46,277 nt of DNA from the NCBI GenBank assembly GCA_903861125.1, contig CAIOTF010000002.1:1-46277 (forward strand), written 5' to 3'. The notes beneath the pieces were generated by a model, which was not told the DNA's origin, did not search any database, and saw only the letters and a program-made list of their open reading frames with translations. The DNA is from an uncultured Ignavibacteriota bacterium (GTDB lineage Bacteria; Bacteroidota; Ignavibacteria; UBA10030; UBA8401). This document shows, piece by piece, positions 5,879-25,976 of this stretch (within the stretch, counting starts at the first letter, position 1; each line of letters begins with the position of its first letter). The translations under genes were made by a program, and so were the position numbers.

Positions 5879-7498
5879 CTAAAAATCGCCGATTGCGGAA
5901 ATCACACGTCTCCAGAAATCGCTACCGTTCAATCCGTTTGTCATGATAACGATTGCAGTCTGTCCGGAATAATTAAATTGTGCATAACACCTGAATCCCG
6001 ATTGATTTGCGCCGCTGTGATACACGATATTTTCTGTTATCGTAGAATCAATCGCCCAGCCGAGTCCCCAGTAAACGCCGATTCCTTTTGCACGTCCCGG
6101 GCGGGGTATCGGTTCACGGATAAGCACTTGAATCTGATGGCGCATCATTTCGGTTCGTGATGCTTCGGACAAGGATGCACTTCCCTTCGCGCTGCGATCA
6201 AGGATATGACCAATGATGGAGGCAAAATCCTCCGCACTGGTGTAGAGTGAGTAGGCGGCGTTCGGCTGTACGTATTTTGTTTTCTGCAAAAAAGCACCGG
6301 ACGTATCGTGTCCAGAGGCGATTAGTGTATCGAGATCCTTCGTCCACGCATAGCTGATATGCTTCAATCCGAGAGGAGCAAAGAGAGTTTGCTGTGCATA
6401 AACATCCAGCTGTTTGCCGGTAATTTTCTCAACGACTCTTTGTAAATAAAAATATCCTTCTCCCGAATATCCGAATTGTGTTCCCGGTTTAAAATATACC
6501 GGAAGAGGTCCGTTAGTTTCTTCATATCCTTTGCGCCAATTCGGGAACCCGGATGTATGGCAGAGAATCATCCGCGCGGTAACGCTTTTTCCGTAATCGC
6601 CAAGAGCGATAAATTGTTCGTCAAGATATGCAGTCAGTGGTTTGTCCAGGTCCAGTTTTTTTTCTTCCGCCAATTTCATCACCAGATATGCAAACACCGG
6701 TTTTGACATGGAGCATGCTTCGAACATTGTTTGGCTGGTAACGGGCTCAAGGTTCCGCGCATCCTTCACGCCGAAATTTGCCGACCAAAACATTTTCCCT
6801 TTTTTCAACAGACAGACGGAGACCCCAGGAATATGCAGTTCCTTCATGAAACGCGGAACAAGCATGCCGATAGCCGTAATAATAGAATCGTCGTTGGGCG
6901 GATTTTTAAGCTTTGTGCGTTGTATTCTGCTGAGTGCATACGCTGCTCCCCATTTGATATCTTCGTTCGGATCATGAAGATATTTTGATATTTCGGATGC
7001 GGCAGGGGTGGCAGGTTTACCAATATTTCCCAGAGCGATGAGTGAACACCACCTAACATTTTCGTTCGGATCGGCGAGAGCCTTCGTCAAAAACGGAACT
7101 GCCTCTTGTACATCCCCACCGATTCTGCCTAACGAGATGGCAGCACCCCAGCGTACATTATCATTCGTATCCTGAAGCGCCTTCAGTAAATATGGAACCG
7201 CTCTCTTGCCGATGCGGCCGAGCGATAGCGCTGCTTCACCGAGCAGATAAAGATTCCCGTCCGACAGAGAAACGATCAGAAACGAAACAGCGGCAGTATC
7301 AAATTTTTTTCGATTACCGAGTGTCCGCACGGCATCCAAACGCACGTTGTCCGGATTGTTTTTATCCGCCGCTAGCGAAATAAGAGAGTCGATCGTTGAA
7401 GGATGATGCTGTGCCGGCATACTTGAAACGGCGGCAAGCAGGAGTACTATTATAAACGCAAATGTTCGCTGAGTATGATCGTTGCGGTTGTTCATCAT
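5879..7498 (-). CDS. Secreted HEAT-repeat / beta-lactamase-fold serine hydrolase fusion
   Basis: 539 aa. A signal peptide (about 11-30) is followed by four or five HEAT-like repeats (about 50-193; ALSLGRIGKRAVPYLLKAL, AISLGRIG, ALGNIG, AYALSRI). A class C beta-lactamase/esterase-type domain occupies about 205-539. Catalytic motifs are S263-x-x-K266 (SMSK), Y344-S-G, and HSG near the C-terminus (YHSGANQSG). Such enzymes include D-aminopeptidases, esterases and peptidoglycan-acting hydrolases; the substrate cannot be told here. The HEAT array may bind a partner or a polymer. The TAA of the upstream PLP-enzyme gene lies two bases before the ATG, so the two are probably cotranscribed. Confidence 0.85.
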   Translation of the reverse strand: MMNNRNDHTQRTFAFIIVLLLAAVSSMPAQHHPSTIDSLISLAADKNNPDNVRLDAVRTLGNRKKFDTAAVSFLIVSLSDGNLYLLGEAALSLGRIGKRAVPYLLKALQDTNDNVRWGAAISLGRIGGDVQEAVPFLTKALADPNENVRWCSLIALGNIGKPATPAASEISKYLHDPNEDIKWGAAYALSRIQRTKLKNPPNDDSIITAIGMLVPRFMKELHIPGVSVCLLKKGKMFWSANFGVKDARNLEPVTSQTMFEACSMSKPVFAYLVMKLAEEKKLDLDKPLTAYLDEQFIALGDYGKSVTARMILCHTSGFPNWRKGYEETNGPLPVYFKPGTQFGYSGEGYFYLQRVVEKITGKQLDVYAQQTLFAPLGLKHISYAWTKDLDTLIASGHDTSGAFLQKTKYVQPNAAYSLYTSAEDFASIIGHILDRSAKGSASLSEASRTEMMRHQIQVLIREPIPRPGRAKGIGVYWGLGWAIDSTITENIVYHSGANQSGFRCYAQFNYSGQTAIVIMTNGLNGSDFWRRVISAIGDF

Positions 7499-7500
7499 GG

Positions 7501-8505
7501 TTATCTTTTCACGGTTACATTGGCAAGCGGACGAAATTCCGGTTCATACGAAAATAAGACCGGCAATCCCCCGGTGTGTATGAATACGGTCGGCAGGTCT
7601 GGATCCAGTATTTTCTTCACAACAAGATCAATCAATCCCGCCATAGCTTTTCCGGTATAGACCGGATCGAGCAGCACTCCTTCCGTGCGCGCACATTGGA
7701 TCACCGCGTTTTGTCCTTCGGCTGTCGGTGAGCCATACTCGGTAAAATAGCGGTCGTATGTTTCTATGTCCCTCTCCTGAACATCAAGCGGCATGTTCAG
7801 CAGCGTGCGGCATTCGCTGATAATTTCAAGTGTTCGTTTCGTGATGGCAGCGGAAGTGCGTGAGACACTGATCCCGACGATTCGGGAGTTGGGCATAAAC
7901 ATTCTTGCGCCGAGTATAATTCCGGCAAGCGTGCCGCACGAACCGACGGGCAGAACGATCTGCACTTTTTTATCGGTGTTCAGTTGAGCAGAGATTTCCT
8001 TCACCGCGGTGATACAGCCGAGCGAACCGAGCGCCGTGCTTCCGCCGATGGGAAGCATATAAGGACGTGATCCACTCCGCTTCAATTCCTCCGCCCAATC
8101 CGTCATCGCCGCTGTAAGATGATCGTTGGCGTCATCGTTCGGAAGGAATCTGATCTCTGCGCCGAACAGAATATCCAGCAGAAGATTTCCGTCGTATGAA
8201 GTGAATTCGGGTCCGCCAAGCACCATCTTCGCTTTCAGATTGAACATCGCTGCGGCAGCGGCAACAATTCTTACAAGATTCGATTGAACTCCGCCCGCCG
8301 CCATAACAACATCGTGGTTATTTTCGAGGATCTCTGCGAAGTCATATTCAAGTTTCCTCACTTTGGTTCCGCCGCCGGCAAACCCTGTAAGATCATCCCG
8401 TTTGATGAACAGTGAGGCGAGGCCAAGTTCTTTTGCCAGGCGCGGTGCCGCTTGGAGAGGCGTGGGATACATGCCGAGGTGAATGCGGGGAAAATCTTCT
8501 ATCAT
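7501..8505 (-). CDS. D-cysteine desulfhydrase / ACC deaminase-family PLP enzyme
   Basis: 334 aa from the ATG at 8505; a GTG start at 8586 would add 27 residues that do not look like the family. The enzyme begins FPRIHLGMYPTPL, with the PLP lysine motif GGGTKVRKLEY near residue 50, the AAGGVQSN segment, and the phosphate-binding loop LPVGSCGTLAG. Family members degrade D-cysteine to pyruvate, H2S and ammonia, or deaminate 1-aminocyclopropane-1-carboxylate; sequence reading alone does not separate these. Its neighbours handle peptides and amino-acid stereochemistry, which favours a D-amino-acid role. The length matches the family (about 330). Confidence 0.88.
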   Translation of the reverse strand: MIEDFPRIHLGMYPTPLQAAPRLAKELGLASLFIKRDDLTGFAGGGTKVRKLEYDFAEILENNHDVVMAAGGVQSNLVRIVAAAAAMFNLKAKMVLGGPEFTSYDGNLLLDILFGAEIRFLPNDDANDHLTAAMTDWAEELKRSGSRPYMLPIGGSTALGSLGCITAVKEISAQLNTDKKVQIVLPVGSCGTLAGIILGARMFMPNSRIVGISVSRTSAAITKRTLEIISECRTLLNMPLDVQERDIETYDRYFTEYGSPTAEGQNAVIQCARTEGVLLDPVYTGKAMAGLIDLVVKKILDPDLPTVFIHTGGLPVLFSYEPEFRPLANVTVKR

Positions 8506-8592
8506 ACGGATTGTCCGTTCAAAATAGTAACTGATGCTACGCGTAAATGAATTTATTTGGTAAAATGGTTCTGCCAAAGGTATCACTTCGTG

Positions 8593-8635
8593 AGGCGCGT
8601 CCCGATAAAAAGAATCGGGACTTGCTCACCATGAC
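8593..8635. repeat. Dispersed palindromic repeat, copy 1
   Basis: Shares GGCGCGTCCCGAT, a variable 7-8-base loop, then ATCGGGACTTGCTCA and CATGAC with a second copy at 11398-11440. The stem GTCCCGAT/ATCGGGAC (8599-8606 with 8614-8621) is perfect. A run of seven T follows on the plus strand, but no plus-strand gene ends here, so it looks like a REP-type intergenic element. Confidence 0.7.
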
Positions 8636-8669
8636 CGTTTTTTTGTTCTGCGTAACATCAGATAGTAAT

Positions 8670-8692
8670 ACGCTGAACATGTAATTCAGCGT
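8670..8692 (-). terminator. Hairpin after the C45-family gene, possible terminator
   Basis: A perfect 8-bp stem, ACGCTGAA (8670-8677) with TTCAGCGT (8685-8692), has a 7-base loop and lies 11 bases after the stop at 8703. There is no clear U-tract on the minus strand, so termination is uncertain. Confidence 0.35.
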
Positions 8693-8702
8693 GAGAGCTG
8701 TT

Positions 8703-10115: not shown

Positions 10116-10183
10116 GCGATCCCTCAAACGGTTGTGGTTTTAAATAAATAGCAGTGTTGCTCCGGCCGGCAATACTTTACCGG

Positions 10184-11314
10184 TCATGTTTTTTTAATGT
10201 AATGAATATTTCGTTCTTTCAAATACTGAATGATGTACTCGTAACACGCCGTTCTCTTCCCTATCATTTCCGGCGGAAAAACTCCCTGTTGTGTGAACAG
10301 ACCGTCCAAGAACATATTGGCAATAGCGGTTGCCGTGTATCCGGTGGTTCGTGCCATGGACGATGTTTGAGTTTCGGAGCTGTATTCGTTATACAAATTG
10401 TACACCACTTCTTCAGTTTGCCCGCTTTTGTTTTTGCCTTTAAGGGTAATGCGCATGACGGTCATTTCCGGCTCGGTTTCGCCCAATTTCCACTCGTCGA
10501 AAAGAATTTTGCTTGTCACCTCAAGCGGCGAAACCGACTGCCCTTGTACATTTACTTTTTTCTTACTGAAGAAACCGCTCTCTTTCAACGCTTTGACAAT
10601 CTCCACGTGACCCGGATATCTAAGCGTTTTTTCTTTCATGTTCTTAATATGAGGCATGGTATAAATAATTGACCGTAAGCCGTCCGTATTGAACGATTCA
10701 AGCGTACCGACATTATCAAATTCAATCAGTTCACAGTCTGAAAGCGCGTCGCGTACAATAATTTTCCCGTTCTCAACATAACGAGCCGGCCGAGTATATT
10801 CCTCGATGACATCGATGGGAGAAAAAGGAGCTTTATAATAGAATGGCCATTTTTTTACTTTCGGCAATCCGCCGACCAGACACTCAAAGTCGGTCAACTC
10901 AAACATTTCATTATAGTGACCTAAAATAATATTATCCATACCCGGCGCAACACCACAATCAACAAAAACAGTGACTCCTTTTGCCTTCGCGCTTTCATCA
11001 AGATCAAGTCCATTTTCAGGGAAAAAAGAGATATCCACCGCATTCTTTCCGGCGTTAATGATCTGTTTTATTGTATGATAGCCAAGAAATCCGGGCACAG
11101 CACACACAACAAGATCAAAAGGTTTCAGCGCAGATTGAAACGAGGCGGCATCAAGTACATCCAATTCCATTGCAGTAATGTCAGGGCATTTTTTCTGTAT
11201 CTGTTTTGTTCGCCGTATATTCACATCTGCTAATGTTACGGAATGTTTTTTTGCGAGATCGATCGCCATTGCACCGCCTACCATGCCGGCGCCTATTACT
11301 ATAATGCTGCTCAT
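10184..11314 (-). CDS. Saccharopine dehydrogenase-family oxidoreductase
   Basis: 376 aa. An N-terminal Rossmann fold starts at once with VIGAGMVGGAMA (about 5-16), and the central saccharopine-reductase-like domain contains DCGVAPGMDN and LVGGLPK. Members use NAD(P) to interconvert glutamate adducts such as saccharopine with amino acids in lysine metabolism. The enzyme is cytoplasmic, with no signal peptide. GAAAGG lies about 8 bases before the ATG at 11314. It lies in a row of amino-acid-processing genes on the same strand, so a role in lysine or related amino-acid breakdown is plausible, but the substrate is not proven. Confidence 0.85.
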   Translation of the reverse strand: MSSIIVIGAGMVGGAMAIDLAKKHSVTLADVNIRRTKQIQKKCPDITAMELDVLDAASFQSALKPFDLVVCAVPGFLGYHTIKQIINAGKNAVDISFFPENGLDLDESAKAKGVTVFVDCGVAPGMDNIILGHYNEMFELTDFECLVGGLPKVKKWPFYYKAPFSPIDVIEEYTRPARYVENGKIIVRDALSDCELIEFDNVGTLESFNTDGLRSIIYTMPHIKNMKEKTLRYPGHVEIVKALKESGFFSKKKVNVQGQSVSPLEVTSKILFDEWKLGETEPEMTVMRITLKGKNKSGQTEEVVYNLYNEYSSETQTSSMARTTGYTATAIANMFLDGLFTQQGVFPPEMIGKRTACYEYIIQYLKERNIHYIKKT

Positions 11315-11397
11315 CTAATTGCCTTTCGTTCCATTAAATGTCTGTTGCTATTACTGTTTTCAATTAATTAATTTTTTTACATACACTGCGATGCTTC

Positions 11398-11494: not shown

Positions 11495-12604
11495 TCATCG
11501 CTTAAACTCTTCCTTGGATACCGTTACACGCTCCAACCGTTCCATAAGAATTTCCACGCCGATCCCGAGTCCTGTCGGGACAGGCATCATGCTGTCGGAA
11601 TCTATCTCGAATGCTGGATCAACAATATCCTCTTTGTAATACCGTCTGCTGGCAGAGATATCTCCGGGAAGGATAAAATTTGGAAGTGACGCGAGTGCAA
11701 TATTTCCGGCACGGCCTATGCCCGATTCGTCCATACCCCCATGCCATACCGGAATATTTTTCGACATACAGAAATCATGGATCTTTTTGGATTCAGTGTA
11801 TCCGCCGACCCGGCCCGGTTTTATGTTGATGATACTGCAGCTTCCCAATTCAAGTGCTGCACGGGCATCCGAAAGCGTGTAGATGCTTTCGTCAAGGCAA
11901 ATCGGCGTTGTAATTTGCCGCGCCAATATGGAATGATCATAAATATCATCGTATCCCAGCGGCTGTTCGTTAAGCTGCAGACCGAAGTCATCCAATTTTT
12001 TCAGCATCGCTACATCGTTAAGTGTGTATGCCGAGTTCGCATCGACCTGAAGTTGTATATCAGGAAATTCTTTTCTGATGGCTGAAACAAGATCAATGTC
12101 TCTTCCGGGAGCAATCTTGATCTTGATCCGCTGATAACCATCGCGCAGATATTCTTCAACTGTCTTTACCAACTGTGCCGACGATGATTGCAGACCAACA
12201 CTAACACCGACAGGTACACGCTTACGCGTTCCTCCAAGGAAAGCGGAGAGTGATTGACCGTTTGCTTTGGCAAACAAATCGGAAAGTGCGGCCTCCAAAC
12301 CGGCGCGAGCCATTCGATGTCCTCTTACCCATGCATACTGTGCAAGCGCATCATGAATTGTTTCAAAATTTTTTCCGAGAACGCTTGGTACCAAAAAATC
12401 ACGGAGAATATGCCAGGCGGTCTGCAGAGTTTCATACGAATACGACGGCGTCGGTTCAACAACACATTCTCCCCATCCGGACATTCCTTCTCCGTCCACC
12501 CGCACCAAAATATGTTCCTCGTAGAGTTCGACACCAAGCGATGTTTCAAAGGGTGAAACGAGCTCCATTTTTGTGTGCCGCAGTTCAATCCGGTTAACTA
12601 TCAT
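11495..12604 (-). CDS. Enolase-superfamily N-acylamino-acid racemase / o-succinylbenzoate synthase (MenC type 2)
   Basis: 369 aa. The barrel active site is complete: K161-x-K163 (IKIKIAPG), D188-x-N190, E213 (NEQP), D238 (LDES) and K262 (NIKPGRVGG). The GGMDESGIGRAGN stretch is typical of the NSAR/OSBS subgroup. Such enzymes dehydrate a menaquinone precursor or racemise N-succinyl amino acids; many do both. No other menaquinone genes are in the window, while peptidases, an acylase-like enzyme and a D-cysteine-desulfhydrase-like enzyme are, so N-acylamino-acid racemisation is the better guess. It is cytoplasmic. Confidence 0.87.
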   Translation of the reverse strand: MIVNRIELRHTKMELVSPFETSLGVELYEEHILVRVDGEGMSGWGECVVEPTPSYSYETLQTAWHILRDFLVPSVLGKNFETIHDALAQYAWVRGHRMARAGLEAALSDLFAKANGQSLSAFLGGTRKRVPVGVSVGLQSSSAQLVKTVEEYLRDGYQRIKIKIAPGRDIDLVSAIRKEFPDIQLQVDANSAYTLNDVAMLKKLDDFGLQLNEQPLGYDDIYDHSILARQITTPICLDESIYTLSDARAALELGSCSIINIKPGRVGGYTESKKIHDFCMSKNIPVWHGGMDESGIGRAGNIALASLPNFILPGDISASRRYYKEDIVDPAFEIDSDSMMPVPTGLGIGVEILMERLERVTVSKEEFKR

Positions 12605-12652: not shown

Positions 12653-14146
12653 TCATGGAACGACCCTGACGATAGAATACGCTCCTGTTTTTTTCAAGAG
12701 AGACTCGAAAACAGAATATCCCATAAGACCCCAGACCGATTCAGGTTCAAGTATGATCGTGATGAGCACCGATTGCAGCTGGCCGGTCCGGACTATCATG
12801 TCCCCCTCGTGAAGCATCGATGTTGCCTTCTTCCAGTGTCCAAATGGCTGCGGTTTTGGATCTTCTTCTACGTATTCTGTTCCGACGCTGTCAATTGTGA
12901 ACACTTCGGTGTGTATGGAATGTCGGGAAGTGATCTTTTCCATCGTGATATGATGACGCCGGAGCAGATCCAGTACCGCTGTCAGTTGCTTTGGCACAAT
13001 GTAGGCGGAAGGAATCTTAACGCTGAGATGCGGTTGAACAACGCTGTGATACGGCGTAACACTCCAGACTGTATCCTTATTCAACCGGAGGTTGAAGACC
13101 GGTATCTTCATTTGTGCCACACTCGAAACATGCTCAAGCCGAAGTACAACATTGGTTCCCGCCAACTTGGGAAGATTCAACCGTTCCGAGGAAACCAATG
13201 CCCGTATTTCGCCGGCATACATCGAACAATAATCAATCAACGCTTCCACCGAAGTCAGTTGTGCCCCGGCCCGCCGCCGCAGCGTGTCATCCAGTCCGTA
13301 CCACTTGCGCCCTTCCTGAATAAACGACAGTGAATTTAAAATGCCGAAACTCTCTCGGCCGTCGTTGATTTCGGTGGTGCTGTGGCGAATTCTTGTATCG
13401 GGCGAACCGACGATATATTCCTGAAACCGGTACCCCTTTTGTTCCATTCTAGCAGCAACAAAGGGAAAAATGTTCTGGTGCTGCAACTGACGGATTCGGT
13501 CCGGAGTACTTGGATGGGTGAGCATGCCTAGCTGAACATCACCCGTCTTTACCATTCCGGAATCATACCACTCTTTTCCCGACGTATATTCATGAATATC
13601 AACTGTCACTTCCGGCATCCACCGGTTGAACAGATTGTGAAGTCCCTTCGTCTCCGGTGACGTGAGCAGAACATGATTCCGGTTGAGATCGATGGAGTCG
13701 CTCGTTCTCCGCTGAAGCAGTTCCGCACCATCGGGATTCATTTGCGGTACGATGAGTATATCCATATTCTCTGTCCATCGGGAATTCTGTCCTGAGGCAA
13801 ACTTTGCTATGAGAAGGGTGAGTGCTTCCTTGCCTGACGGTTCATCGCCGTGCTGCTGTGCAAAAATTAACATGCGCAGTTTAGAAGGATTCGTACCGAA
13901 CGCAGAATCCGCTGAAATTTTAACAGCTGAAATTTTCCTTCCGTGCGGTGAGACTGCAACACGTTCAACCTGTATTCCCTTTGTTGCACCAAGCGTGTTA
14001 AGAAATGCCTGCAGTGAATCGTACGATGTTGCATGCTCATACCCGCTCCGTTCAATCGGCGCAACTATCCGTTGTTGACAGACGGCGATACCGGACCCGA
14101 GTGCGAGTATTAGAAACAGCGGAAACGTACGCCAGATTTGAATCAT
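12653..14146 (-). CDS. Secreted M14 zinc carboxypeptidase
   Basis: 497 aa from the ATG at 14146, chosen because it places a signal peptide (MIQIWRTFPLFLILALG) at the N-terminus; the ATG at 14236 would add 30 polar residues. Zinc ligands are H99 and E102 (QQHGDEP) and H185 (VDIHEY), with the substrate-binding motifs NPDG (137-140) and DLNRNH (153-158). The final ~200 residues form an additional domain. It probably trims C-terminal residues or cell-wall peptides outside the inner membrane and feeds the uptake genes upstream. Confidence 0.88.
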   Translation of the reverse strand: MIQIWRTFPLFLILALGSGIAVCQQRIVAPIERSGYEHATSYDSLQAFLNTLGATKGIQVERVAVSPHGRKISAVKISADSAFGTNPSKLRMLIFAQQHGDEPSGKEALTLLIAKFASGQNSRWTENMDILIVPQMNPDGAELLQRRTSDSIDLNRNHVLLTSPETKGLHNLFNRWMPEVTVDIHEYTSGKEWYDSGMVKTGDVQLGMLTHPSTPDRIRQLQHQNIFPFVAARMEQKGYRFQEYIVGSPDTRIRHSTTEINDGRESFGILNSLSFIQEGRKWYGLDDTLRRRAGAQLTSVEALIDYCSMYAGEIRALVSSERLNLPKLAGTNVVLRLEHVSSVAQMKIPVFNLRLNKDTVWSVTPYHSVVQPHLSVKIPSAYIVPKQLTAVLDLLRRHHITMEKITSRHSIHTEVFTIDSVGTEYVEEDPKPQPFGHWKKATSMLHEGDMIVRTGQLQSVLITIILEPESVWGLMGYSVFESLLKKTGAYSIVRVVP

Positions 14147-14217
14147 AGGTCGTCTTTCATTGTAAGGTAAGTAGGCTGTAAATTGCCGTTCGGTTCGTGA
14201 TCGACAGAATGGGGAAT

Positions 14218-14248
14218 GATACCGGCAGCATTCCATTCTGCCGGTATC
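14218..14248 (-). terminator. Hairpin between the PorV-like and carboxypeptidase genes
   Basis: An 11-bp perfect stem, GATACCGGCAG (14218-14228) with CTGCCGGTATC (14238-14248), has a 9-base loop and lies 21 bases after the PorV-like stop codon. No U-tract follows on the minus strand, so it may be a processing or attenuating structure rather than a full terminator. Confidence 0.4.
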
Positions 14249-14268: not shown

Positions 14269-15255
14269 CTAAAAATCTATTTCTATGGAATAACGGTGGA
14301 CGTCGGGGAGCAATTCAAAATTTGCATACGCATAATCAAACCGGATGATGCTGTTGCCGAACTGAAAATTAAATCCGGCACCCAGCGTAAGGTTCTCGTC
14401 GTCATAATTTATTCGGTATCCTCCGCGTAGAAAGAGTCTGTCAATAAACGTCAGCTCCGTACCGACGTTGATCCGTTCGTTATAATCGTTCGGATGGGTC
14501 GCATCAATCTCCCCGCGCATTTTTACAAAATCGGCATTAACCAGATCGAACCCAATGCCAACCTGGAAATGCAGCGGCAGCGGATACTGGCTTGTTTCCA
14601 ATCTTCCCGGTGCAAGTCTGCTGATCGGGTAATTGTTATCGCGAAGGTATGTAATATTGAGATCCTCGCCGTCGAATTTAAGATCGCTCCCAAAATTAGT
14701 CATACTCATTGCTATAACAAGATTGTTGAAATTAATCTTGTATTGCGTCCCGATATCAAACGCGACTCCATCGGCAACTTCGTTCCAAATCCGTTGGTTA
14801 ACGTATTTTCCCGTAATTCCGATGCTGAATTCTTCGCTGAGTGCACGCGCATATGTTATTCCGAGAGCGATATCCTGCGCATCGTAGAAGCGTCCTGTTC
14901 CGTCCGGCTTTAGTTCCGTGGTGATCTCTGTCTTCTTCATTGCAAGGGAGACATAGCTTGCGGCAATTACGCCCGCCTCACCGAAATTATGAACAATGGA
15001 CGCCGCACTGGCATCGAATTGCGAATAGAGATTCATTGTGGAAAAATGGACCGAACTTCCTTCTACTCCGGTGATACCGGAAGGGTTCCAAAATACCGAA
15101 GAAGCGTCATTCGTTGATCCGATAACGGCCCCTCCCATTGATGCGGCCCGAGCGCCCATCGGTATGTTCAAGAATTTTGCGCCCGATGCACCCAGATTTG
15201 GATTTTGCGAATAGAGAAGCGTTATGGCGCAATACAGTGTGAGGAATATTTTCAT
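14269..15255 (-). CDS. PorV/PorQ-family outer-membrane beta-barrel protein
   Basis: 328 aa. A signal peptide (1-16) leads to the conserved start of this family, ASGAKFLNIPMGARAASMGG, then SSVFWNPSGI, and a C-terminal run of alternating beta strands ending in a terminal F. PorV carries T9SS cargo at the cell surface; homologues encoded beside a TonB receptor probably assemble with a specific secreted partner. Here it is the last gene of a TonB receptor / T9SS protein / PorV trio with 8-10-base spacings, so these three most likely form one surface complex. Confidence 0.85.
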   Translation of the reverse strand: MKIFLTLYCAITLLYSQNPNLGASGAKFLNIPMGARAASMGGAVIGSTNDASSVFWNPSGITGVEGSSVHFSTMNLYSQFDASAASIVHNFGEAGVIAASYVSLAMKKTEITTELKPDGTGRFYDAQDIALGITYARALSEEFSIGITGKYVNQRIWNEVADGVAFDIGTQYKINFNNLVIAMSMTNFGSDLKFDGEDLNITYLRDNNYPISRLAPGRLETSQYPLPLHFQVGIGFDLVNADFVKMRGEIDATHPNDYNERINVGTELTFIDRLFLRGGYRINYDDENLTLGAGFNFQFGNSIIRFDYAYANFELLPDVHRYSIEIDF

Positions 15256-18045: not shown

Positions 18046-20511
18046 TTAGAATTTAACAGCTGCTCCAATCCTGATATTTCTTGGTGAGCCAAAATTTGAG
18101 GGATCAAGCTGATATGCTTTGGATAGGTTACCGGTCTGTGTAAATTCCGGATCTCCGGTGTCGGAGTATACATACAAGACATTTTTGTGATTTGTCATAT
18201 TCAGGATCTCGGCAAAGATCCGAAGCGTTGCAACACCATTGAACACAATATCTTTTCCGATTTCCGCGTCGATGGAATATGTTGCGGGAAGCCGCAGCGA
18301 ATTACTCACTACATATCCCACATCGCGACCGCCGGGGGTATAGGGATATCCCGAACTGGCTTTGACAAGGAAAGTGAAATCCATGTTTTCAAATATTCCG
18401 AACGATTCGTCTTTGGGCATTGAATACGTCATTGACGCATTGAACACATGGGTCTTGTCGAAATCCAAATATGTCAGTTGCGTCGATTTAACCGGAACAC
18501 CGTAATTTTCCTCCTCGGTTGATGCATTCCCTTTTGCAACTGAATAGGTATAGGTAATACCTCCGGAAAGATTCTGATTCGGTTTTAGATCAAGATTGAC
18601 CTCGAATCCTTTTACGTTTGCATAATCCTCGTTGATATACAAGGTAAAGGCGCTGTATCGTCCCGGCACCTCGTAGGCAGGATAGTAATGCGTGCCGATC
18701 AGACCCGAAATATCTTTATAGTACGCCGTGGTGCTCATAATAATCTGATCCGAAAACTGGTGCGTAACGCCGACCTCGTATGCAACTGTCCGCTGTGCAT
18801 CGAGCGATGGCTGGCCGAAGATCGGTTCACGGACCGAAAGTTTGAAATCTTTATTTTCGAACATGAACCGGAAATTCGGGTTCTGGAAAAAATGTCCGTA
18901 CGCAAAATGTAGTTTCGTTCTGTCGGAGATCGGATGGGCTATACCGATCCTCGGACTGAATTGCCGGCGCGATGTTACCTGAACGACGGAATTCGGGTTG
19001 AGCGGGTCCTGTCTGAATTGTACATTTGCATTCAAATAATCATAGCGCAGCCCCAGATTAATGACGAGGTACGGAAATTCGATCTTATCTTGAACATAAC
19101 CGGACGCTTCGAACGGACTGTCGGTGAAATAATTATCAATATACTGCAGCGCCATCGGCCGCTTGATTCCGGCAATACTCAGCAGCCGGAGCCGATGTGT
19201 TTTGTATTGACCGCCGAATTTTATTTCATTGTTCTTTCCGAATTGCCAAACCGCATCCCCTTTAACATCAATGTTTGATGTTCTGCTGTCGCTGAGTGTT
19301 GTTGGGGTCGCGTATGAATAAAAATCGTAATGCGTAACTCCGTTTTCAACTGTGGCAACATAATCCTGTTCATTTTCAGAGATATAGCGCGACGTATCGG
19401 TATCATAGCCTGAGAACGCCCCTTGATTGAAGTACGATATTTTCAGTTCGTAAAAAATGTTTTCGCTGACGGTATGAGTGATACTGAAGAGGCTTTGATA
19501 ACTATCCGACCGGGAACGGGAAGATAAATTTGGAATGTACCGGTATGCGTGGGAATACTCCTGCCGATTACTCCGGCTTCCCCTGTTGGAGAGCATCACT
19601 TTCACGGAAGAAATACCGGTATAACTGAGTTTGGTGAACACTGTTTGAGTATTGTCATGTCCAAACGGAAGATAGCTGCCACGGCGGTCATTCTCGGCAG
19701 TAAAGAAAAAATTAATATGATCGATCACCGGTCCGCTGAGCGTTGCCGAATACCGCAGTTCGTGAAACTTGCTGAAATCAGAAATGCCGTATTCCGATGT
19801 TCGCGCTTCCACCTTCCCGGTATAGCGTTCTCCCCCTTCGCGCGTAACAATATTCACTACGCCGCTCATTGCATTTCCGTATTCAGCATTGAACGTACCG
19901 CTGAGCAGACTCATCTCTTGTATTGCATCGTTATTAATCTGTGTCGCAAGTCCTCCGAGCAGCGGATCCTCAACATATGCACCGTCCACCAGATACGCAA
20001 CTTCGTTCGAACGGCCACCGCGGACATGCAGATTCGATCCGCTCCCTACTACACCGGCCTGCAAGCCGATCAATTCAGTAAATGAAGCAACCGGCAACGC
20101 CTCTATGTCCCCGGCAGAGATCACCGATATTGAACTGGTAATATCCTTTTGGATGGCAGGTGCCTGAGCAGAAACGATCACTTCGCTCAATTCAACATTG
20201 GTGGGTTTTAAGGTAACGGAAAGCGTTGTTGTTTGATCCGCAACGATCTTCACCTGTTCAATAAGTTTTGCTTCGTACCCAAGCGAACTGACCCGGACAG
20301 AATATGTTCCGGGTGAAACATTCAGGATAATAAATGAACCGTCAACACCCGTTGCGGTACCGAGCGTCGTACCGACAATTTGCACCGTTGCACCAAGCAG
20401 CGGTTCTTTTGTTGATCCGTCTATGGCTGTGCCCGATATCTTACCGGTTGTGCCGCCAAAAAGGAATGACGAAACAGCGAAGATCACAATGGCAATTTTT
20501 TTCATGGTCAT
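18046..20511 (-). CDS. TonB-dependent outer-membrane receptor with carboxypeptidase-regulatory-like N-domain
   Basis: 821 aa. A signal peptide is followed by a CarboxypepD_reg-like domain (about 22-105, KISGTAIDGSTKEPLLGATV). A plug domain follows (about 110-230, LHVRGGRSNEVAYLVDG, GNAMSGVVNIVTREGG), then a 22-strand-type barrel to the C-terminal F. It imports a substrate across the outer membrane using TonB energy. Its ATG lies two bases after the stop of the RpiR regulator gene, so regulator and receptor share a transcript. A second ATG two codons later (20505) is possible. Peptidase and permease genes in the same run suggest peptides as substrate; a sugar or other ligand cannot be excluded. 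Confidence 0.9.
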   Translation of the reverse strand: MTMKKIAIVIFAVSSFLFGGTTGKISGTAIDGSTKEPLLGATVQIVGTTLGTATGVDGSFIILNVSPGTYSVRVSSLGYEAKLIEQVKIVADQTTTLSVTLKPTNVELSEVIVSAQAPAIQKDITSSISVISAGDIEALPVASFTELIGLQAGVVGSGSNLHVRGGRSNEVAYLVDGAYVEDPLLGGLATQINNDAIQEMSLLSGTFNAEYGNAMSGVVNIVTREGGERYTGKVEARTSEYGISDFSKFHELRYSATLSGPVIDHINFFFTAENDRRGSYLPFGHDNTQTVFTKLSYTGISSVKVMLSNRGSRSNRQEYSHAYRYIPNLSSRSRSDSYQSLFSITHTVSENIFYELKISYFNQGAFSGYDTDTSRYISENEQDYVATVENGVTHYDFYSYATPTTLSDSRTSNIDVKGDAVWQFGKNNEIKFGGQYKTHRLRLLSIAGIKRPMALQYIDNYFTDSPFEASGYVQDKIEFPYLVINLGLRYDYLNANVQFRQDPLNPNSVVQVTSRRQFSPRIGIAHPISDRTKLHFAYGHFFQNPNFRFMFENKDFKLSVREPIFGQPSLDAQRTVAYEVGVTHQFSDQIIMSTTAYYKDISGLIGTHYYPAYEVPGRYSAFTLYINEDYANVKGFEVNLDLKPNQNLSGGITYTYSVAKGNASTEEENYGVPVKSTQLTYLDFDKTHVFNASMTYSMPKDESFGIFENMDFTFLVKASSGYPYTPGGRDVGYVVSNSLRLPATYSIDAEIGKDIVFNGVATLRIFAEILNMTNHKNVLYVYSDTGDPEFTQTGNLSKAYQLDPSNFGSPRNIRIGAAVKF

Positions 20512-20513
20512 AT

Positions 20514-21368
20514 CTAATGTTGAACAGTGGTTTTTTTCATGATAACATCCAGTTCGGAAAGCATTTTTTCTGCTCGGGACTTATCTTTAAGCGCACATTG
20601 TGTGGAAAGCGCATTGATCAAAACGGAAATTGCCGCGAAGGAATTGGTATAGAGCATATTTTCGCTCTTTACAAGCAGGCTCCATGCCGCGTAAAATGTT
20701 GTTGGGGCATTTTCTTTATTCGTAATGGAAATCACGGTGATCCCTTTTTCAGACGCGATTCGTGCCGCATCGATGGTCTCTTGCGAATAGGGCTGGAATG
20801 AAAAAACGATGAGAACTTCGTTTTGCGAAAAAAAAAGCACCTGTTCGGCAAAATTGGTGGACCCCTGGCGAAGGGCCGACGATGCAATGCCGACCTGGTT
20901 CAATTGATAGCTGAGAACTTCCGCCAGCAAAAATGAAATGCCAAGACCCGCCGTATAGACATGTTTTGCCTTAAGAATAGCATCTGTTGCGGCATTAAAA
21001 TCATCGCGCTTAATCAGCGCAAGGGTCGTGTTGATGTTCTTAACGTCCTGCCGTGCGACGAGCGTAAGAATATCGTTTTGCAGTACACCGGCAGATGGAA
21101 CGGTGAACACATCGGACTGCTTCAAACGATCCTGAAGCGATTTCCCTATCTCTTCCTGAAGTTCTTTATACCCTTCAAATCCCGTGCGCTGTGCAAACCG
21201 GACAATGGAGGCAACACTCGACGACGTTGATGCTGCCATTTCTTGAACATTTAAGAATGGTATACGGTCAAAATTCTCAACAAAAAAATCGGCGATCTTT
21301 TTGTGATTTTTTGGAAGCGTACTGTAACGCTTTCTGATCTTCTCTTTTATATCGTCGTATTGTGTCAT
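20514..21368 (-). CDS. MurR/RpiR-family transcriptional regulator
   Basis: 284 aa. An RpiR-type helix-turn-helix domain covers about 1-77 (KIADFFVENFDRIPFLNVQE, SSVASIVRFAQRTGFEGYKE). A SIS sugar-isomerase-like ligand domain covers about 125-250 (ILKAKHVYTAGLG, VLIVFSFQPYSQET, KGITVISITNKENAP). RpiR proteins usually sense phosphosugars, for example N-acetylmuramate-6-phosphate, but some respond to other metabolites. It is the first gene of the regulator-TonB-T9SS-PorV unit and lies right after a terminator, so it probably controls this unit. Confidence 0.92.
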   Translation of the reverse strand: MTQYDDIKEKIRKRYSTLPKNHKKIADFFVENFDRIPFLNVQEMAASTSSSVASIVRFAQRTGFEGYKELQEEIGKSLQDRLKQSDVFTVPSAGVLQNDILTLVARQDVKNINTTLALIKRDDFNAATDAILKAKHVYTAGLGISFLLAEVLSYQLNQVGIASSALRQGSTNFAEQVLFFSQNEVLIVFSFQPYSQETIDAARIASEKGITVISITNKENAPTTFYAAWSLLVKSENMLYTNSFAAISVLINALSTQCALKDKSRAEKMLSELDVIMKKTTVQH

Positions 21369-21375
21369 AAAATAG

Positions 21376-21407
21376 AAGCCCGGAACTCTTCACAAAGCTC
21401 CGGGCTT
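21376..21407 (-). terminator. Rho-independent terminator between the T9SS protein and RpiR genes
   Basis: Perfect 9-bp stem AAGCCCGGA (21376-21384) with TCCGGGCTT (21399-21407). On the minus strand CTATTTTATG follows, so the U-rich tail runs into the RpiR start codon at 21368. It lies 12 bases after the stop of the upstream gene and separates it from the RpiR-TonB unit. Confidence 0.75.
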
Positions 21408-21419
21408 GAACACCTGAAC

Positions 21420-22562
21420 TTACTTCATCAACATCATTTTTTTTGTCTCTTTATAATTGCCGGCCTGCATTGTGTAATAGTACATGCCTGAAGAAAGATT
21501 TTCCGCAGAAAGCGGAACGGTATAGGATCCTGTTTCAAGCTGCTGACTGACGAGCGATCGTACTTCTCGGCCGAGCGCATCAAATACTTTCACTGAAACG
21601 TAAGATGATGTTCCAATGCTGAAATTGATCCGTGTGGATGGATTGAAAGGATTCGGGTAATTCTGCTCTAGCAAGAATCCGTTCGGGGATTGAACATTGC
21701 TCTTTTGCACCGATGTCGATATTTTCGGATATTTTGCCGTAGCAGAATCAAGTGCTGAATTCATTTCACTTTCGGTTGTTCCATATCCTATTGCATAGTA
21801 GTATGTTGCCGAATCTCCCAGTTTCGCAAACGATGCTTTCCCCACGTTCACGGTGAAAACACTTCCGTTCGATCCAGCAACAAGTAATGAATCTTTGTAA
21901 CCAGTGGTTGACAGCATTGCATACCGCGTAGAATCTGTTGCCGCATCATTATTCGGATCTGTCGGTGAGAAAATGTCCCAATCGAGCATCGAAACTCCAA
22001 GCGCATTCGGGCTGAGTACTTTTACACCCCAGTAACTTGCTTCTCCGACACGAAAGAATGATGTGGTTTTTTTTGCGCCGCTGTACTTAATACTTTCACC
22101 ACCGTATGCCTGACTCGGTTTCGGAATGATAACGGCACCCATATAAAGTGATCCGAGTGACGCGGTATCTGCAATAACCCTGTAGCGTACAATAATATAT
22201 TTTTGATTTTTCCACGCCATCACGGTCGTTCGTACTTTCACTTTCGGGGGGAGATTGGTGTAACTGTTGTCCGATAATACTTCGGCTGCGCTGTCGACAC
22301 CCGCAAGCGTGATTGCTTGAACACCATCTACCGTACTATTGGCATCGTTATTATAATCGAACACGGCATCCGCCGATTGTCCGACATCAAGCGACATGCG
22401 GTCGACTTCCCTGTTGGCTTTCACATAACTGTTTGTACTGGTACTCACTTTTCCGTACTTGTCCAGACTGTATCCGATCAGACCGGTACCACCGGTAACC
22501 TGTGCAGCCGATATAGCTGCAAATACGAACAATGCCGTGAATACTGTCAACAATTGTTTCAT
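21420..22562 (-). CDS. Secreted T9SS-sorted protein of unknown function
   Basis: 380 aa. A signal peptide (1-20, ending AAISAAQ) leads to a beta-rich domain of about 270 residues that I do not recognise (VTGGTGLIGYSLDKYGKVS at its start). The T9SS type A domain (about 298-380) carries NYPNPFNPSTRINFS and VKVFDALGREV and ends KKMMLMK. AGGAGG lies 6 bases before the ATG, a strong ribosome-binding site. It follows the YfcC permease gene by 48 bases on the same strand. A surface binding or adhesion role is possible, but nothing shows it directly. Confidence 0.75.
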   Translation of the reverse strand: MKQLLTVFTALFVFAAISAAQVTGGTGLIGYSLDKYGKVSTSTNSYVKANREVDRMSLDVGQSADAVFDYNNDANSTVDGVQAITLAGVDSAAEVLSDNSYTNLPPKVKVRTTVMAWKNQKYIIVRYRVIADTASLGSLYMGAVIIPKPSQAYGGESIKYSGAKKTTSFFRVGEASYWGVKVLSPNALGVSMLDWDIFSPTDPNNDAATDSTRYAMLSTTGYKDSLLVAGSNGSVFTVNVGKASFAKLGDSATYYYAIGYGTTESEMNSALDSATAKYPKISTSVQKSNVQSPNGFLLEQNYPNPFNPSTRINFSIGTSSYVSVKVFDALGREVRSLVSQQLETGSYTVPLSAENLSSGMYYYTMQAGNYKETKKMMLMK

Positions 22563-22610
22563 AGTAACCTCCTGAATAAATGAATGATGAATTTGAATTA
22601 AAGAAACAAT

Positions 22611-23999
22611 TTACTGCCAATTAAATATCACAGGCGGAATGAGCAACAGCAACGCCAGTATAAAAAAGAAAATCTCTATCGGCACCATCCATTGAACCCA
22701 TTTGTTCCATGGAATCTGTGCCAATCCCAGCACACCCATCGTCAATCCGGATGTCGGAAGAATAGGATTGATCCATCCCTCGCCGAATTGAAATGCAAGA
22801 ACAGCCGTTTGCCGCGAAATACCGATCACATCCGCAAGAGGAGACATGATGGGCATGGTCAGCGCTGCCTGACCCGAACCGGAGTGGACAAAAAAATTGA
22901 TAATCCCCTGCACAATAAACATCATCTGCGCAGCGAAGACGGGATGAACGGTGGATATGATACCGGAACAAGCAAAGAGCAGAACATCGAGTACTTTTCC
23001 ATCGTTCGCCACCACAAGTATTGCGCGTGCGCAAGCAATGACCAAGGCAACGCCGACCATATCTTTTGCCCCATCTCGAAAACTATCCGTCATTTCTGTT
23101 GCGGTCAATTTTCCCACGATGCCGGAAAATATCCCCAGAGCCAAAAAGAGTGCCGCGAGTTCGCTCAGCCACCATTGATATTCCAGGACTCCGTAAACAA
23201 GCACACCCAATGCGCCGATAAAACTGAACAAAATAATTTTCCGCGAAAGCGTAAAGTGTTCGACCACGCTGTTGGACAAATGCAATGTCTTTTTGCGCTC
23301 GGTATCCTGTTCGAACATGAGACTGATGGAAGGATTATTTTTTACTTTTTTTGCATACCGGCTCACAAAAACGGTCATCGCCGTGGTGCTCAGCACCCAC
23401 ACAAATATCCGGTATTCCATACCCGAATAGAGTGGTATCTGCGCTATACTTTGTGCAATACCAACGGTAAAGGGATTAAACACCGATGCCGCAAATCCTG
23501 CGGCGGCACCGAGAAACGGAATGGACACTCCCACAAACGAATCATATCCTAACGACAATGCCAGCGGAATGAAAAGCGGAATAAACAATAAGACCTCTTC
23601 GGACATTCCGAATGACGATCCGGCGACCGAAAAGATGGTCATGGTGACGGGTATAAAATATTTCTGGAGATGCGGCTTCTCCGCAAAAGTGCGCGCCAAA
23701 TTCTGGATCGATGCAGTGATCGCGCCTGTCTTCAAAATAATCGAAAATGACCCGCCGAGCATGAGTAAAAATCCGATAATCTCCGCCGCCTGAACAAATC
23801 CTTTAAATGGAGAAGCTAATACATCGGCAATACCCTGCGGTTTGTTCTCAATAAATTCGAACGAGTTCGGAATAACAAGCGTTCTACCATTAATAATCTG
23901 ACGCTTATATTCGCCGCTTGGAACGATCCATGTTGTGATCGCAACAAGCACAATCACGGCAAAAATCATCACCAACGTATTGAAATTGAATTTTTTCAT
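22611..23999 (-). CDS. YfcC-family inner-membrane carboxylate/amino-acid permease
   Basis: 462 aa with about 11-12 hydrophobic helices. Family marks include the N-terminal TTWIVPSGEYKR, the SSFGMSEEVLLFIPLFIPL re-entrant segment, a VFNPFTVGIAQ motif and HSGSGQAALTMPIM near the C-terminus. YfcC/AbgT/DcuC-like proteins move dicarboxylates, arginine/ornithine or dipeptide-like solutes; the substrate here is unknown. The ATG at 23999 overlaps the end of the cyanophycinase gene by four bases (ATGA), indicating coupling, so it likely imports products linked to that enzyme or to the M20 peptidase. Confidence 0.87.
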   Translation of the reverse strand: MKKFNFNTLVMIFAVIVLVAITTWIVPSGEYKRQIINGRTLVIPNSFEFIENKPQGIADVLASPFKGFVQAAEIIGFLLMLGGSFSIILKTGAITASIQNLARTFAEKPHLQKYFIPVTMTIFSVAGSSFGMSEEVLLFIPLFIPLALSLGYDSFVGVSIPFLGAAAGFAASVFNPFTVGIAQSIAQIPLYSGMEYRIFVWVLSTTAMTVFVSRYAKKVKNNPSISLMFEQDTERKKTLHLSNSVVEHFTLSRKIILFSFIGALGVLVYGVLEYQWWLSELAALFLALGIFSGIVGKLTATEMTDSFRDGAKDMVGVALVIACARAILVVANDGKVLDVLLFACSGIISTVHPVFAAQMMFIVQGIINFFVHSGSGQAALTMPIMSPLADVIGISRQTAVLAFQFGEGWINPILPTSGLTMGVLGLAQIPWNKWVQWMVPIEIFFFILALLLLIPPVIFNWQ

Positions 24000-24883
24000 C
24001 TCTTGTTAATCGCCACTTTCTTGCTTTTCAGGTTATAGGAATCTCCGGATTGGAGAATATGCATTGACATATTGTAGGCAGAAAGATATTTGTTCTTGTT
24101 GGTCCGCACATGTTTTGAATGTGTCGCATCATACACCACCACTACGCTTTCGCCGAGCACATCGAACGTACGGTCGGGATTCACAATGATGCTGGTTGCT
24201 TCATCAATCCCTACACCGACCAATGCAGGATTCTGCAGTACCACAGAGATCAGCCGGTTATGTCTTCTGCGGACAACAAAATGCTGATCGATGATCGCTT
24301 CCGTTATAAAACCGAAACCTTCTTTTACTTCAATGTTATCCTTTAACAAAGAGAAGAAGGACGCGGTGGAATCTTTGTTTATTAATTCGTTACCCGTCAG
24401 CATAATTTTGCTCATTACCGCGGCTCCTGCGCTTGTTCCCCCCACAACCCCTCCATTCTTGTAGATTTCATTAATACGTTTTTGCACTTTCGTATTCAAT
24501 AATGCGGCGGTTAACAGCACTTGATCGCCGCCGGAATAGAATACACCCGTAACATTTGCCAGCTTTCCAACGGTGGAGTCCTGGTTTGCGGCATCGGCAG
24601 TGATGTTCAGGTAGAATGATTCCTTAACGCCCAGTTTTTTTATCTGCCTTGCTTGGTCCGATCCCACTTCTTCGGCTACGGAACTTGCCATCGGAAAAAC
24701 AACGATCGTTGCATTTTTCCCGCCGGCTAATTCAATAAATTTTTGCATTATCTCATCGGTCCGTTCACCTCCGCCGATGATCACAAGGTGACCCTTGTTC
24801 TGCGCATAGCCGATCCGGCTGAATGCGATAACTGCAAGAAGTACTGCAGCGGCTATGGTTCTAATGTTCCTGAATGAGCGCAA
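23996..24883 (-). CDS. Exported cyanophycinase-like serine peptidase (S51)
   Basis: 295 aa. The start is TTG at 24883, with GGAG about 8 bases upstream; no usable ATG precedes the hydrophobic N-terminus (AAAVLLAVIAFSRIGYAQ), which looks like a signal peptide. The catalytic serine lies in GGTSAGAAVMS (about 145-155), preceded by GVFYSGGDQ; IDQHF and RRRHNRL follow, as in cyanophycinase. The family cleaves beta-Asp-Arg polymer to dipeptides, or isoaspartyl-like bonds. An exported form would attack external cyanophycin-like or isopeptide material. It overlaps the M20 gene by 23 bases and the permease gene by four, so the three are cotranscribed. Confidence 0.85.
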   Translation of the reverse strand: MRSFRNIRTIAAAVLLAVIAFSRIGYAQNKGHLVIIGGGERTDEIMQKFIELAGGKNATIVVFPMASSVAEEVGSDQARQIKKLGVKESFYLNITADAANQDSTVGKLANVTGVFYSGGDQVLLTAALLNTKVQKRINEIYKNGGVVGGTSAGAAVMSKIMLTGNELINKDSTASFFSLLKDNIEVKEGFGFITEAIIDQHFVVRRRHNRLISVVLQNPALVGVGIDEATSIIVNPDRTFDVLGESVVVVYDATHSKHVRTNKNKYLSAYNMSMHILQSGDSYNLKSKKVAINKR

Positions 24884-25976
24884 TGGCGATCTCCGTTGAT
24901 TTAATTAAGTCTTCAATAAGGATAAATTCTTCGAATGAATGCGGCTTTTGAGCTCCCGTTCCGATATTGATTGCAGGAATCCCCCTGCCGTTGTATGAAT
25001 TTGCATCGCTGCCGCCAGTGTATCTGATTCCTTTTGGCGTTAAACCGGCCGTTCGCAGTGCTTTTTCCATTGTTAGCACTATGGCGGAGTTCTCAGCGTG
25101 AATGTACGGATGGAAATCAATGTCGCTCTTAAATTGTACAGAGCCCCCGTTCACAACGCTTCGCTCAAAACTATTTCGGATCAGCTGATATTCGGCGTTG
25201 ATTCTTTCAAGCGTAAATGAACGGACTTCGCCTTCGATGATCACTTCATCAGGTACAACATTTGTCGGACCGCCGCCGCTGATTTTTCCGATGTTGGATG
25301 TTGTTTCCGGATCGATGCGTCCGAAGCCTACCTGTGCCATTGCGTTCGCCGCAAGAGTGATTGCGTTAATCCCTTCTTCCGGCGCAACTCCGGCATGGGC
25401 TGATTTTCCTTTTACCGTTGCGGTAAAGACCAAACATCCGGCGCCATCCTTTATATAGATGCCAGGCCGTTTGGAACAATCGAAGATATACGCTGCGGTA
25501 ACATTGTACGGCTGCAGTTCAACGTGGTTGGCACCATACATGCCCACTTCTTCTCCAACGGTGAAGACGCAGATGAAATTCTTTACCGGGGCAGCTGCAT
25601 CTTTAATTTTTTTTGAAAGATATGTCAGCACCGCAACCCCAAGTCGGTCATCGCCGCCGAGAATAGTTGTACCGTCCGATGTGATTCTATCTTCCGTAAC
25701 ATTCGCAACAAGTTTCTCTGTGGGTTGAACCGTATCTAAATGGGCGCATAATGCGATGCTTGGTTTTGATGCATCGAATGTCGGCGGAAGGCAGATAAGA
25801 TTGCCTGCGCTTCCATGTATTTTTTTTGCCGTATCATCTTCAATAACGGTGAAACCAAGAAGAGAAAACTGACGTTTCACTTCATCCGCAATGGCGCGTT
25901 CATTAAGAGAAGGAGAATTGATTGCGGCAAGGTGTACAAACAAATCGATGAGTTCTTTTTTGTCTATGTAGATCAT
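24861..25976 (-). CDS. M20 metallopeptidase, PepT-like
   Basis: 371 aa, cytoplasmic. Metal and catalytic residues are visible: H and D in ALCAHLDT, D in GGDDRLG, the EE pair in TVGEEVG, D in IFDCSKR, and H in KPHSFEE. The dimerisation domain includes VKGKSAHAGVAPEEGINA. Closest in style to tripeptidase T-like proteins of the M20 family, it would remove N-terminal residues from small peptides, or deacylate N-acyl amino acids as some M20 members do. It heads the M20-cyanophycinase-permease-T9SS-protein row; upstream lies a 270-base gap that probably holds the promoter. Confidence 0.9.
   Translation of the reverse strand: MIYIDKKELIDLFVHLAAINSPSLNERAIADEVKRQFSLLGFTVIEDDTAKKIHGSAGNLICLPPTFDASKPSIALCAHLDTVQPTEKLVANVTEDRITSDGTTILGGDDRLGVAVLTYLSKKIKDAAAPVKNFICVFTVGEEVGMYGANHVELQPYNVTAAYIFDCSKRPGIYIKDGAGCLVFTATVKGKSAHAGVAPEEGINAITLAANAMAQVGFGRIDPETTSNIGKISGGGPTNVVPDEVIIEGEVRSFTLERINAEYQLIRNSFERSVVNGGSVQFKSDIDFHPYIHAENSAIVLTMEKALRTAGLTPKGIRYTGGSDANSYNGRGIPAINIGTGAQKPHSFEEFILIEDLIKSTEIAIALIQEH

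Follow-up and report, generated by a model that had tools for sequence, protein, structure and literature searches.

A conserved locus around an exported cyanophycinase in an uncultured Ignavibacteriota bacterium, probably serving the scavenging of cyanophycin or related beta-aspartyl peptides

On which substrate does a run of fourteen minus-strand genes act that, in an uncultured Ignavibacteriota bacterium, combines a TonB-dependent receptor, proteins of the type IX secretion system (T9SS), a permease, a cyanophycinase and several further peptidases? The genes occupy positions 5879-25976 of a 46,277-nucleotide stretch of DNA (GenBank assembly GCA_903861125.1, contig CAIOTF010000002.1), here called the window, which is contig C2 of a 4.19-Mb genome (G000). 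An earlier note, made from the sequence letters, had taken them for one locus harvesting peptides with D-residues, N-acyl groups or beta-aspartyl links. Cyanophycin is multi-L-arginyl-poly-L-aspartate, and the locus probably scavenges this polymer, or beta-aspartyl peptides much like it, when other bacteria release them. This reading is carried by the gene families, their conserved order, the retained catalytic residues, the lack of a cyanophycin synthetase over cut-off and the alternation of an M20 peptidase with the beta-aspartyl peptidase IaaA. The fourteen long open reading frames (ORFs; shorter nested or opposite ones were set aside) are, from the first gene to the last:

24861-25976, minus strand: M20 PepT-like metallopeptidase (PF01546/PF07687), cytoplasmic with no signal peptide by eye, proposed beta-Asp-X dipeptidase
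23996-24883, minus strand: exported cyanophycinase of family S51 (TIGR02069), signal peptide by eye, overlapping both neighbours
22611-23999, minus strand: YfcC/DcuC-family inner-membrane permease (PF03606, 342 bits), predicted carrier of basic amino acids or dipeptides
21420-22562, minus strand: T9SS type-A secreted surface protein (PF18962) with a modelled super-sandwich N-terminal domain, probable ligand binder
20514-21368, minus strand: RpiR/MurR-type regulator with HTH_6 and SIS domains (profile match), recurring inside the locus
18046-20511, minus strand: TonB-dependent outer-membrane receptor (PF07715, PF13715) with a CarboxypepD_reg-like domain
15266-18037, minus strand: T9SS/Fn3-type surface protein of 923 amino acids, between the TonB receptor and PorV, with a weak PorZ C-terminal match
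14269-15255, minus strand: PorV/PorQ-family outer-membrane barrel (NF033709, 198.8 bits, cut-off 90)
12653-14236, minus strand: exported M14 metallopeptidase (PF00246, 55.7 bits), start probably internal, at the signal peptide seen by eye
11495-12604, minus strand: enolase of the N-acyl(succinyl)amino-acid racemase / o-succinylbenzoate synthase (OSBS) family (TIGR01928, 364.5 bits, cut-off 200.65)
10184-11314, minus strand: saccharopine-dehydrogenase-fold enzyme (PF16653/PF03435), closest solved structure 3abi (PH1688), 228 bits
8703-10127, minus strand: exported (by eye) C45-family Ntn acyltransferase/hydrolase (NF040521, 118.4 bits, cut-off 85; PF04916)
7501-8586, minus strand: pyridoxal-phosphate (PLP) enzyme of the D-cysteine desulfhydrase / ACC deaminase family (PF00291; TIGR01275 279.7, just under 289.4)
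5879-7498, minus strand: exported (by eye) HEAT-repeat and S12/beta-lactamase-type serine hydrolase (PF00144, PF13646)

Families were called over curated cut-offs (Pfam, NCBIfam/TIGR) unless noted, and export was judged from N-termini by eye. The permease scores 374 bits against NF008611, under the cut-off of 500. The best solved relatives of the D-cysteine-desulfhydrase-like enzyme are 1j0a (214 bits) and 4d97 (212 bits). The gene count, strand and nearly all families are as the earlier note had described them; the RpiR regulator and the HEAT-repeat S12-type last gene had gone unnamed there.

Against TIGR02069 the cyanophycinase reaches 189 bits (cut-off 126.6), and the solved structures closest to it are themselves cyanophycinases (7uqv, 145 bits; 3en0, 111 bits). 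Law et al. are said to have defined, in 2009, a pocket of Ser132, Gln101, Asp172, Gln173, His174, Arg178, Arg180 and Arg183 (Synechocystis numbering), and these eight residues fit the spacing of the 3en0 chain. All eight are present in the window protein, at residues 121, 151, 199-201, 205, 207 and 210; the set is complete in every one of the 34 locus sequences, the window's own among them, and in 60 of the 65 loci of the wider comparison, where a broken copy in G090 and four distant sequences depart from it. His174 and Arg178 are needed for binding of beta-(Asp-Arg)2, according to PMC12661447. Judged by its sequence, the enzyme is a cyanophycinase, and hydrolysis of cyanophycin to beta-Asp-Arg is predicted. 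The beta-aspartyl or cyanophycin substrate named in the earlier note thus gains support from the pocket, and also from the alternation with IaaA described below. A second S51-like stretch is found in 11 of 20 related loci, a count taken from the CphB-query table, the 65-locus table being possibly inflated by matches to T9SS tails. By Pfam, the second S51 protein of two relatives in the order (L150 and L153) is an S51 domain with a T9SS tail, and therefore would act outside the cell; at the position of Gln173, the three second copies examined have Thr or Ser.

The neighbourhood of the cyanophycinase gene (CphB) is conserved as well. Within the order, represented by 98 genomes, a cyanophycinase match occurs in 28, and it is strong (E below 1e-40) in 26; surroundings were compared for 25 of these 26 (all but G075), together with 40 of the 65 genomes outside the order that have a match. 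The core order M20 - CphB - YfcC - T9SS protein - RpiR - TonB - T9SS/Fn3 - PorV recurs in three families of the order (f1, f5, f6), provided that the contigs reach that far, and in three further families of the class (f7, f14, f17), so that the linkage of the core is far beyond chance. The genes are kept in order and not scattered across order and class, which bears out the view of the earlier note that they form one linked harvesting locus. The full arrangement of fourteen genes was seen in G002, of the same genus. Departures from the core order occur: G270, G381 and G451 lack YfcC or have it in another place, the T9SS protein is out of its slot in G471 and G243, and two f22 genomes of another class (G111, G102) have CphB - T9SS protein - RpiR - TonB - T9SS/Fn3 - PorV without adjacent M20 or YfcC. 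The core neighbours are absent around the cyanophycinase of three f19 genomes and of G014; one of these genomes, G355, has IaaA within 4 kb. Distances of CphB correlate with those of M20 (r = 0.79, 37 genomes; no housekeeping control gene, and shared descent alone could give such a value), YfcC (0.75), RpiR (0.79), TonB (0.66), the 923-residue protein (0.82) and PorV (0.57), and, in fewer genomes, with those of M14 (0.73, 10 genomes), the racemase (0.38, 7) and C45 (0.91, 6). In a plasmid search for M20 or cyanophycinase, every match had under 60% identity.

A cyanophycinase may serve a cell's own store or the polymer of others. With at most eight candidates scored per genome, cyanophycin synthetase (TIGR02068) was over cut-off in none of the 98 order genomes, window genome included, which gave weak Mur-ligase-like matches only; the window locus therefore looks like scavenging and not like storage. 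Of the 40 genomes in the wider set, 7 have the synthetase over cut-off, and the 13 class-level genomes with an M20 locus are not among them. Altogether 38 of 39 M20 loci stand in genomes without cphA1 over cut-off. The exception, G314, belongs to another class and has a synthetase - cyanophycinase - IaaA group near 3.82 Mb and, separate from it, a SusC-SusD-cyanophycinase-M20 group near 3.56 Mb, a separation which agrees with two roles, storage and scavenging.

According to PMC10206079, known scavenging clusters combine a cyanophycinase and a transporter with either IadA or IaaA, and in Firmicutes and Bacteroidota the isoaspartyl dipeptidase is still undiscovered. In the window, the corresponding place is taken by the M20 enzyme, which scores 268.5 bits against TIGR01883 (just under the cut-off of 274.25), has 3gb0 as solved relative (222 bits) and is distantly related to the poly(aspartic acid) hydrolase 7ljh (53 bits). 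All 31 sequences compared, window included, retain the seven metal and catalytic positions of the enzyme. Among 65 cyanophycinase loci, one per genome, M20 is nearby in 39, IaaA in 8, both in none and neither in 18, where nearby means within the compared stretch, mostly up to 20 kb, and the M20 of G314 was counted because its own protein was among the queries. Fisher's test for this alternation gives p = 3e-4, uncorrected for kinship, and much of the contrast is between lineages; the 18 loci with neither are partly on truncated contigs, and some belong to a group with M28, penicillin amidase and Lrp. Two Bacteroidia-side loci (L250 and L259, in G120 and G264) have the order SusC-SusD-IaaA-CphB-YfcC-S51 against M20-CphB-YfcC in the window, IaaA standing there in the M20 position, beside CphB and YfcC. 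In G098 the TonB-T9SS-PorV triad is accompanied by YfcC and CphB, and a 31% relative of IaaA lies on the opposite strand; G214 and G117 have the triad, CphB and M20. IadA was over cut-off in 0 of 30 locus genomes, neither IadA nor IaaA is clustered at the window locus, and the IaaA-type genes of the window genome lie only on contigs C39 and C42. We therefore put forward the M20 enzyme of the locus as an isoaspartyl dipeptidase tentatively, with rather more doubt than confidence.

The second unusual trait is the uptake apparatus. No SusD family match was found among the 20 window proteins scanned; instead, a TonB - T9SS/Fn3 - PorV triad is formed beside the receptor. The 923-residue protein has no Pfam match, and its structural model (pLDDT 73) gave just low-TM Fn3 and PorZ matches in a fold search. 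At least partial resemblance to it is seen in 17 other ORFs of the window genome, and 11 of 12 paralogues examined stand in the same TonB - T9SS/Fn3 - PorV order (L224-L233), L205 being the exception. The 380-residue T9SS protein (model pLDDT 86) resembles, by Foldseek, the super-sandwich domains of GH94, GH38 and GalM (mutarotases), with TM-scores of at most 0.49 by query length, and the modelled domain is plausible as a ligand-binding surface. That the M20 enzyme is an unrecognised beta-Asp-Arg/Lys dipeptidase replacing IaaA or IadA and that, in addition, the triad is an uptake system equivalent to SusCD that this lineage employs repeatedly, here for a storage polypeptide, is a joint proposal that we hold at the lower edge of what we would grant the dipeptidase by itself. 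One paralogous locus, L224 (G000:C51:48001-66000), contains a Na+/H+-antiporter-family permease, M14, M20, a T9SS-tailed protein, PorV, T9SS/Fn3, TonB, a T9SS-tailed lamin-tail protein and RpiR, without S51 or racemase, and is perhaps a sister locus for another peptide.

Put together, these parts would make the following route, in which substrate, transport direction, M20 specificity, regulation and cell locations are all predicted. The proteins displayed by T9SS and the triad of TonB receptor, surface protein and PorV would capture oligomers and import them through the outer membrane; the exported cyanophycinase would, in the periplasm, break the backbone down into dipeptides of beta-Asp-Arg (or Lys), which the YfcC permease would carry inward, and the cytosolic M20 enzyme, whose place is held by IaaA or IadA elsewhere, would split the isopeptide bond. 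RpiR would regulate the locus, the exported M14, C45 and S12-type enzymes may trim other peptides, and the racemase, the PLP enzyme and the saccharopine-dehydrogenase-like enzyme may recycle D- or unusual residues.

Several observations weigh against this picture. The window genome has a single S51 match, hence no T9SS-tailed S51, so insoluble cyanophycin would need to be solubilised by others. The fold of the T9SS protein is like that of sugar enzymes, and RpiR regulators usually sense sugar phosphates. The existence of L224 without S51 implies that much of the set is a general chassis of peptide loci. IaaA-type genes (PF01112) are present elsewhere in most locus genomes, the window's own included (C39, 327 bits), and in 13 of 13 class-level M20-locus genomes, so that the M20 enzyme need not be the isoaspartyl dipeptidase. 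Five locus-bearing order genomes that are at least 95% complete (G013, G039, G044, G050, G084) have no PF01112 match above 240 bits, G013 having none whatsoever; the lower-scoring PF01112 group may also be able to cleave isoaspartyl bonds. Finally, some CphB loci on the Bacteroidia side have a different set, with M28, penicillin amidase and Lrp. In family f31, loci L244-L247 and L254 have SusCD, penicillin amidase, Lrp, M28 peptidases and a class-III aminotransferase, possibly for another substrate; families were scanned in L244, and L245-L247 and L254 were assigned by BLAST cluster.

The rival that survives best, which we nevertheless consider unlikely, is that, in line with the earlier note, the locus scavenges unusual or damaged peptides in general, be they isoaspartyl, D-residue or N-acyl ones, with S51 as one trimming peptidase and cyanophycin not the main substrate. 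The same-genome paralogue without S51 speaks for it, and so do the accessory genes. A close racemase, taken as one of at least 60% identity, occurs in 14 of the 98 genomes of the order; 13 of these also have a strong cyanophycinase, as do 11 of the 12 with a close D-cysteine-desulfhydrase-like gene (at least 50%). Hypergeometric values are 2e-8 and 7e-7, optimistic since kinship was ignored. The D-cysteine-desulfhydrase-like gene moreover adjoins the HEAT/S12 hydrolase, of a family that includes D-peptidases, in 12 of 12 genomes with flanks (window, G002, G049, G088, G374, G018, G025, G089, G090, G007, G087, G058; G003 and G023 left out), the G007 copy having one in-frame stop. G003 has the racemase and the D-cysteine-desulfhydrase-like gene, but just a second-type S51. 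On the other hand, among the 26 genomes with a strong cyanophycinase a close racemase is absent from 13 and a close D-cysteine-desulfhydrase-like gene from 15 (some genomes being incomplete), and the cyanophycinase retains its full pocket. The racemase lies on another, long contig in G018 and G050, so its linkage is not universal. For the D-residues of the earlier note the support is weaker: both genes track the locus, but of the 26 genomes just 13 and 11 possess them.

Together with N-acyl groups, that part of the earlier interpretation is weakened further by two genes that failed as anchors. The saccharopine-dehydrogenase-like gene is widespread in Flavobacteria, where 68 loci, some of them short, held neither cyanophycinase nor racemase; five such loci of Lutibacter have a YfcC-like gene (33-35%) within 10 kb. 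Among the loci compared, it accompanies the racemase in G000, G002, G006 and G114, a class member, M14 being with both also in G006 and G114, and stands beside the D-cysteine-desulfhydrase-like gene in G007. C45 occurs in 23 of 60 relatives, mostly elsewhere in the genome, and adjoins the locus in five of the 23; it is also by the locus in G088, G089 and G090, outside the 60 scanned. The 65-locus table was not used for accessory absence, as many stretches end earlier (the accessories of G374 were seen just in L222). The accessory module belongs with the locus, is optional and not core, and its putative D-residue handling set consists of the racemase, the D-cysteine-desulfhydrase-like enzyme and the serine hydrolase.

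Far less probable is a locus recycling peptidoglycan fragments, with a RpiR/MurR-type regulator, an MpaA-like M14, an AEE-like racemase and an S12 peptidase. RpiR matches do include MurR, M14 weakly matches MpaA, and in one relative (L148) the cyanophycinase stands by anmK; however, no muropeptide amidase, AmpG, NagZ or MurQ family match was found among the fourteen proteins, and the locus enolase is of the N-acylamino-acid racemase (NAAAR)/OSBS kind, while two enolases elsewhere best match DgcA/epimerase, below cut-off (NCBIfam). For that same enolase (1sja, 358 bits; NAAAR structures being the best solved matches, and the family cut-off exceeded) context leans towards racemase over OSBS as physiological role: that it is the OSBS of menaquinone synthesis, merely located here, is equally improbable, for although TIGR01928 is named menC and the genome's other two enolases match epimerases best, G004 and G005, of the same genus and both listed as 100% complete, lack a close copy, the cyanophycinase is present in 13 of the 14 carriers and the gene adjoins the locus in several genomes.

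How does the presumed cyanophycin-scavenging locus relate to known systems? The earlier note knew of no named locus with this set, a statement that has to be corrected: a 'cyanophycin utilization locus' has already been described for a Bacteroidetes scavenger (cited in PMC10206079). That of L21-Spi-D4 (Ben Hania et al. 2017, as cited in PMC10206079) has a cyanophycinase, IadA and a transporter. It is alike in its cyanophycinase and clustered transporter for scavenging, the order studied here having no cphA1 over cut-off; it differs, as described there, in that no IadA is over cut-off here and M20 takes its place, and in that the window has uptake by the TonB-T9SS-PorV triad and a large accessory peptidase/racemase module. 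With SusC/SusD loci the window shares a TonB receptor with CarboxypepD_reg domain, surface proteins, exported hydrolases, a local regulator and a permease, whereas it has no SusD match and a T9SS/Fn3 protein and PorV-family barrel adjoin the receptor. N-succinylamino-acid racemase (NSAR) pathways, which turn D- into L-amino acids, are known from Geobacillus; a NAAAR/NSAR-family racemase and an M20 hydrolase recur here, but the window locus has no N-succinyltransferase and its M20 is PepT-like, not a desuccinylase. Cyanophycin dipeptide hydrolases have been annotated as M14 or AstE/AspA (Sharon et al. 2023, cited in PMC10206079), and by this family annotation the window M14, with its weak AstE/AspA match, is comparable. 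As such a hydrolase it was rejected: its best solved relatives are carboxypeptidases, with weak scores, and, unlike a cytosolic dipeptidase, it appears exported and is therefore on the wrong side.

A literature search, with most subscription journals outside its scope, gave no paper describing the M20 or triad arrangement. What would be new is M20 in the usual place of IaaA or IadA and the triad in place of SusCD; cyanophycin scavenging loci are known. The statement of PMC10206079 on the undiscovered dipeptidase concerns genomes with cphA1, and the present case is parallel to it and not identical, because nearly all genomes with an M20 locus lack a cphA1 over cut-off. The M20 gene, tightly linked to the cyanophycinase and alternating with IaaA, is a concrete and easily assayed candidate, and the triad, should it prove to be an uptake unit, would allow nutrient loci to be annotated also in lineages whose loci have no SusD.

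The fourteen genes are likely one operon, because the first genes overlap, most gaps are short and, on the 5' side, a hairpin is followed by a near-consensus promoter-like site:

26029-26057, minus strand: promoter-like TTGACA-17-TACAAT, 5' of the first gene, 11 of 12 consensus matches
26193-26216, minus strand: terminator-like hairpin between the operon and the upstream M16 pair, 10-pair stem and T tract

The count of promoter-like and terminator-like sites 5' of the operon is not above that of shuffles. When a conserved RpiR operator was sought 5' of M20, just a TTGACA-type -35 motif recurred (12 of 31). A 14-pair hairpin at 21376-21407 (minus strand), between the T9SS-protein and RpiR genes, is possibly an attenuator or mRNA end. 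Directly 5' of the operon, beyond the terminator-like and promoter-like sites, lie two M16 peptidase genes (26245-29970, minus strand), and convergent with its other end, at 3107-5659 (plus strand), an 850-residue Kelch-repeat protein is encoded whose C-terminal part is, by eye, transcription-activator-like. Further along the window, 40579-43905 (minus strand) encodes an unusual fusion of 1108 residues, with a spore-photoproduct-lyase-like region (PF20903) and an MCM-type ATPase region (PF00493), and near the window end, at 45308-46159 (plus strand), there is a transposase with rve integrase core.

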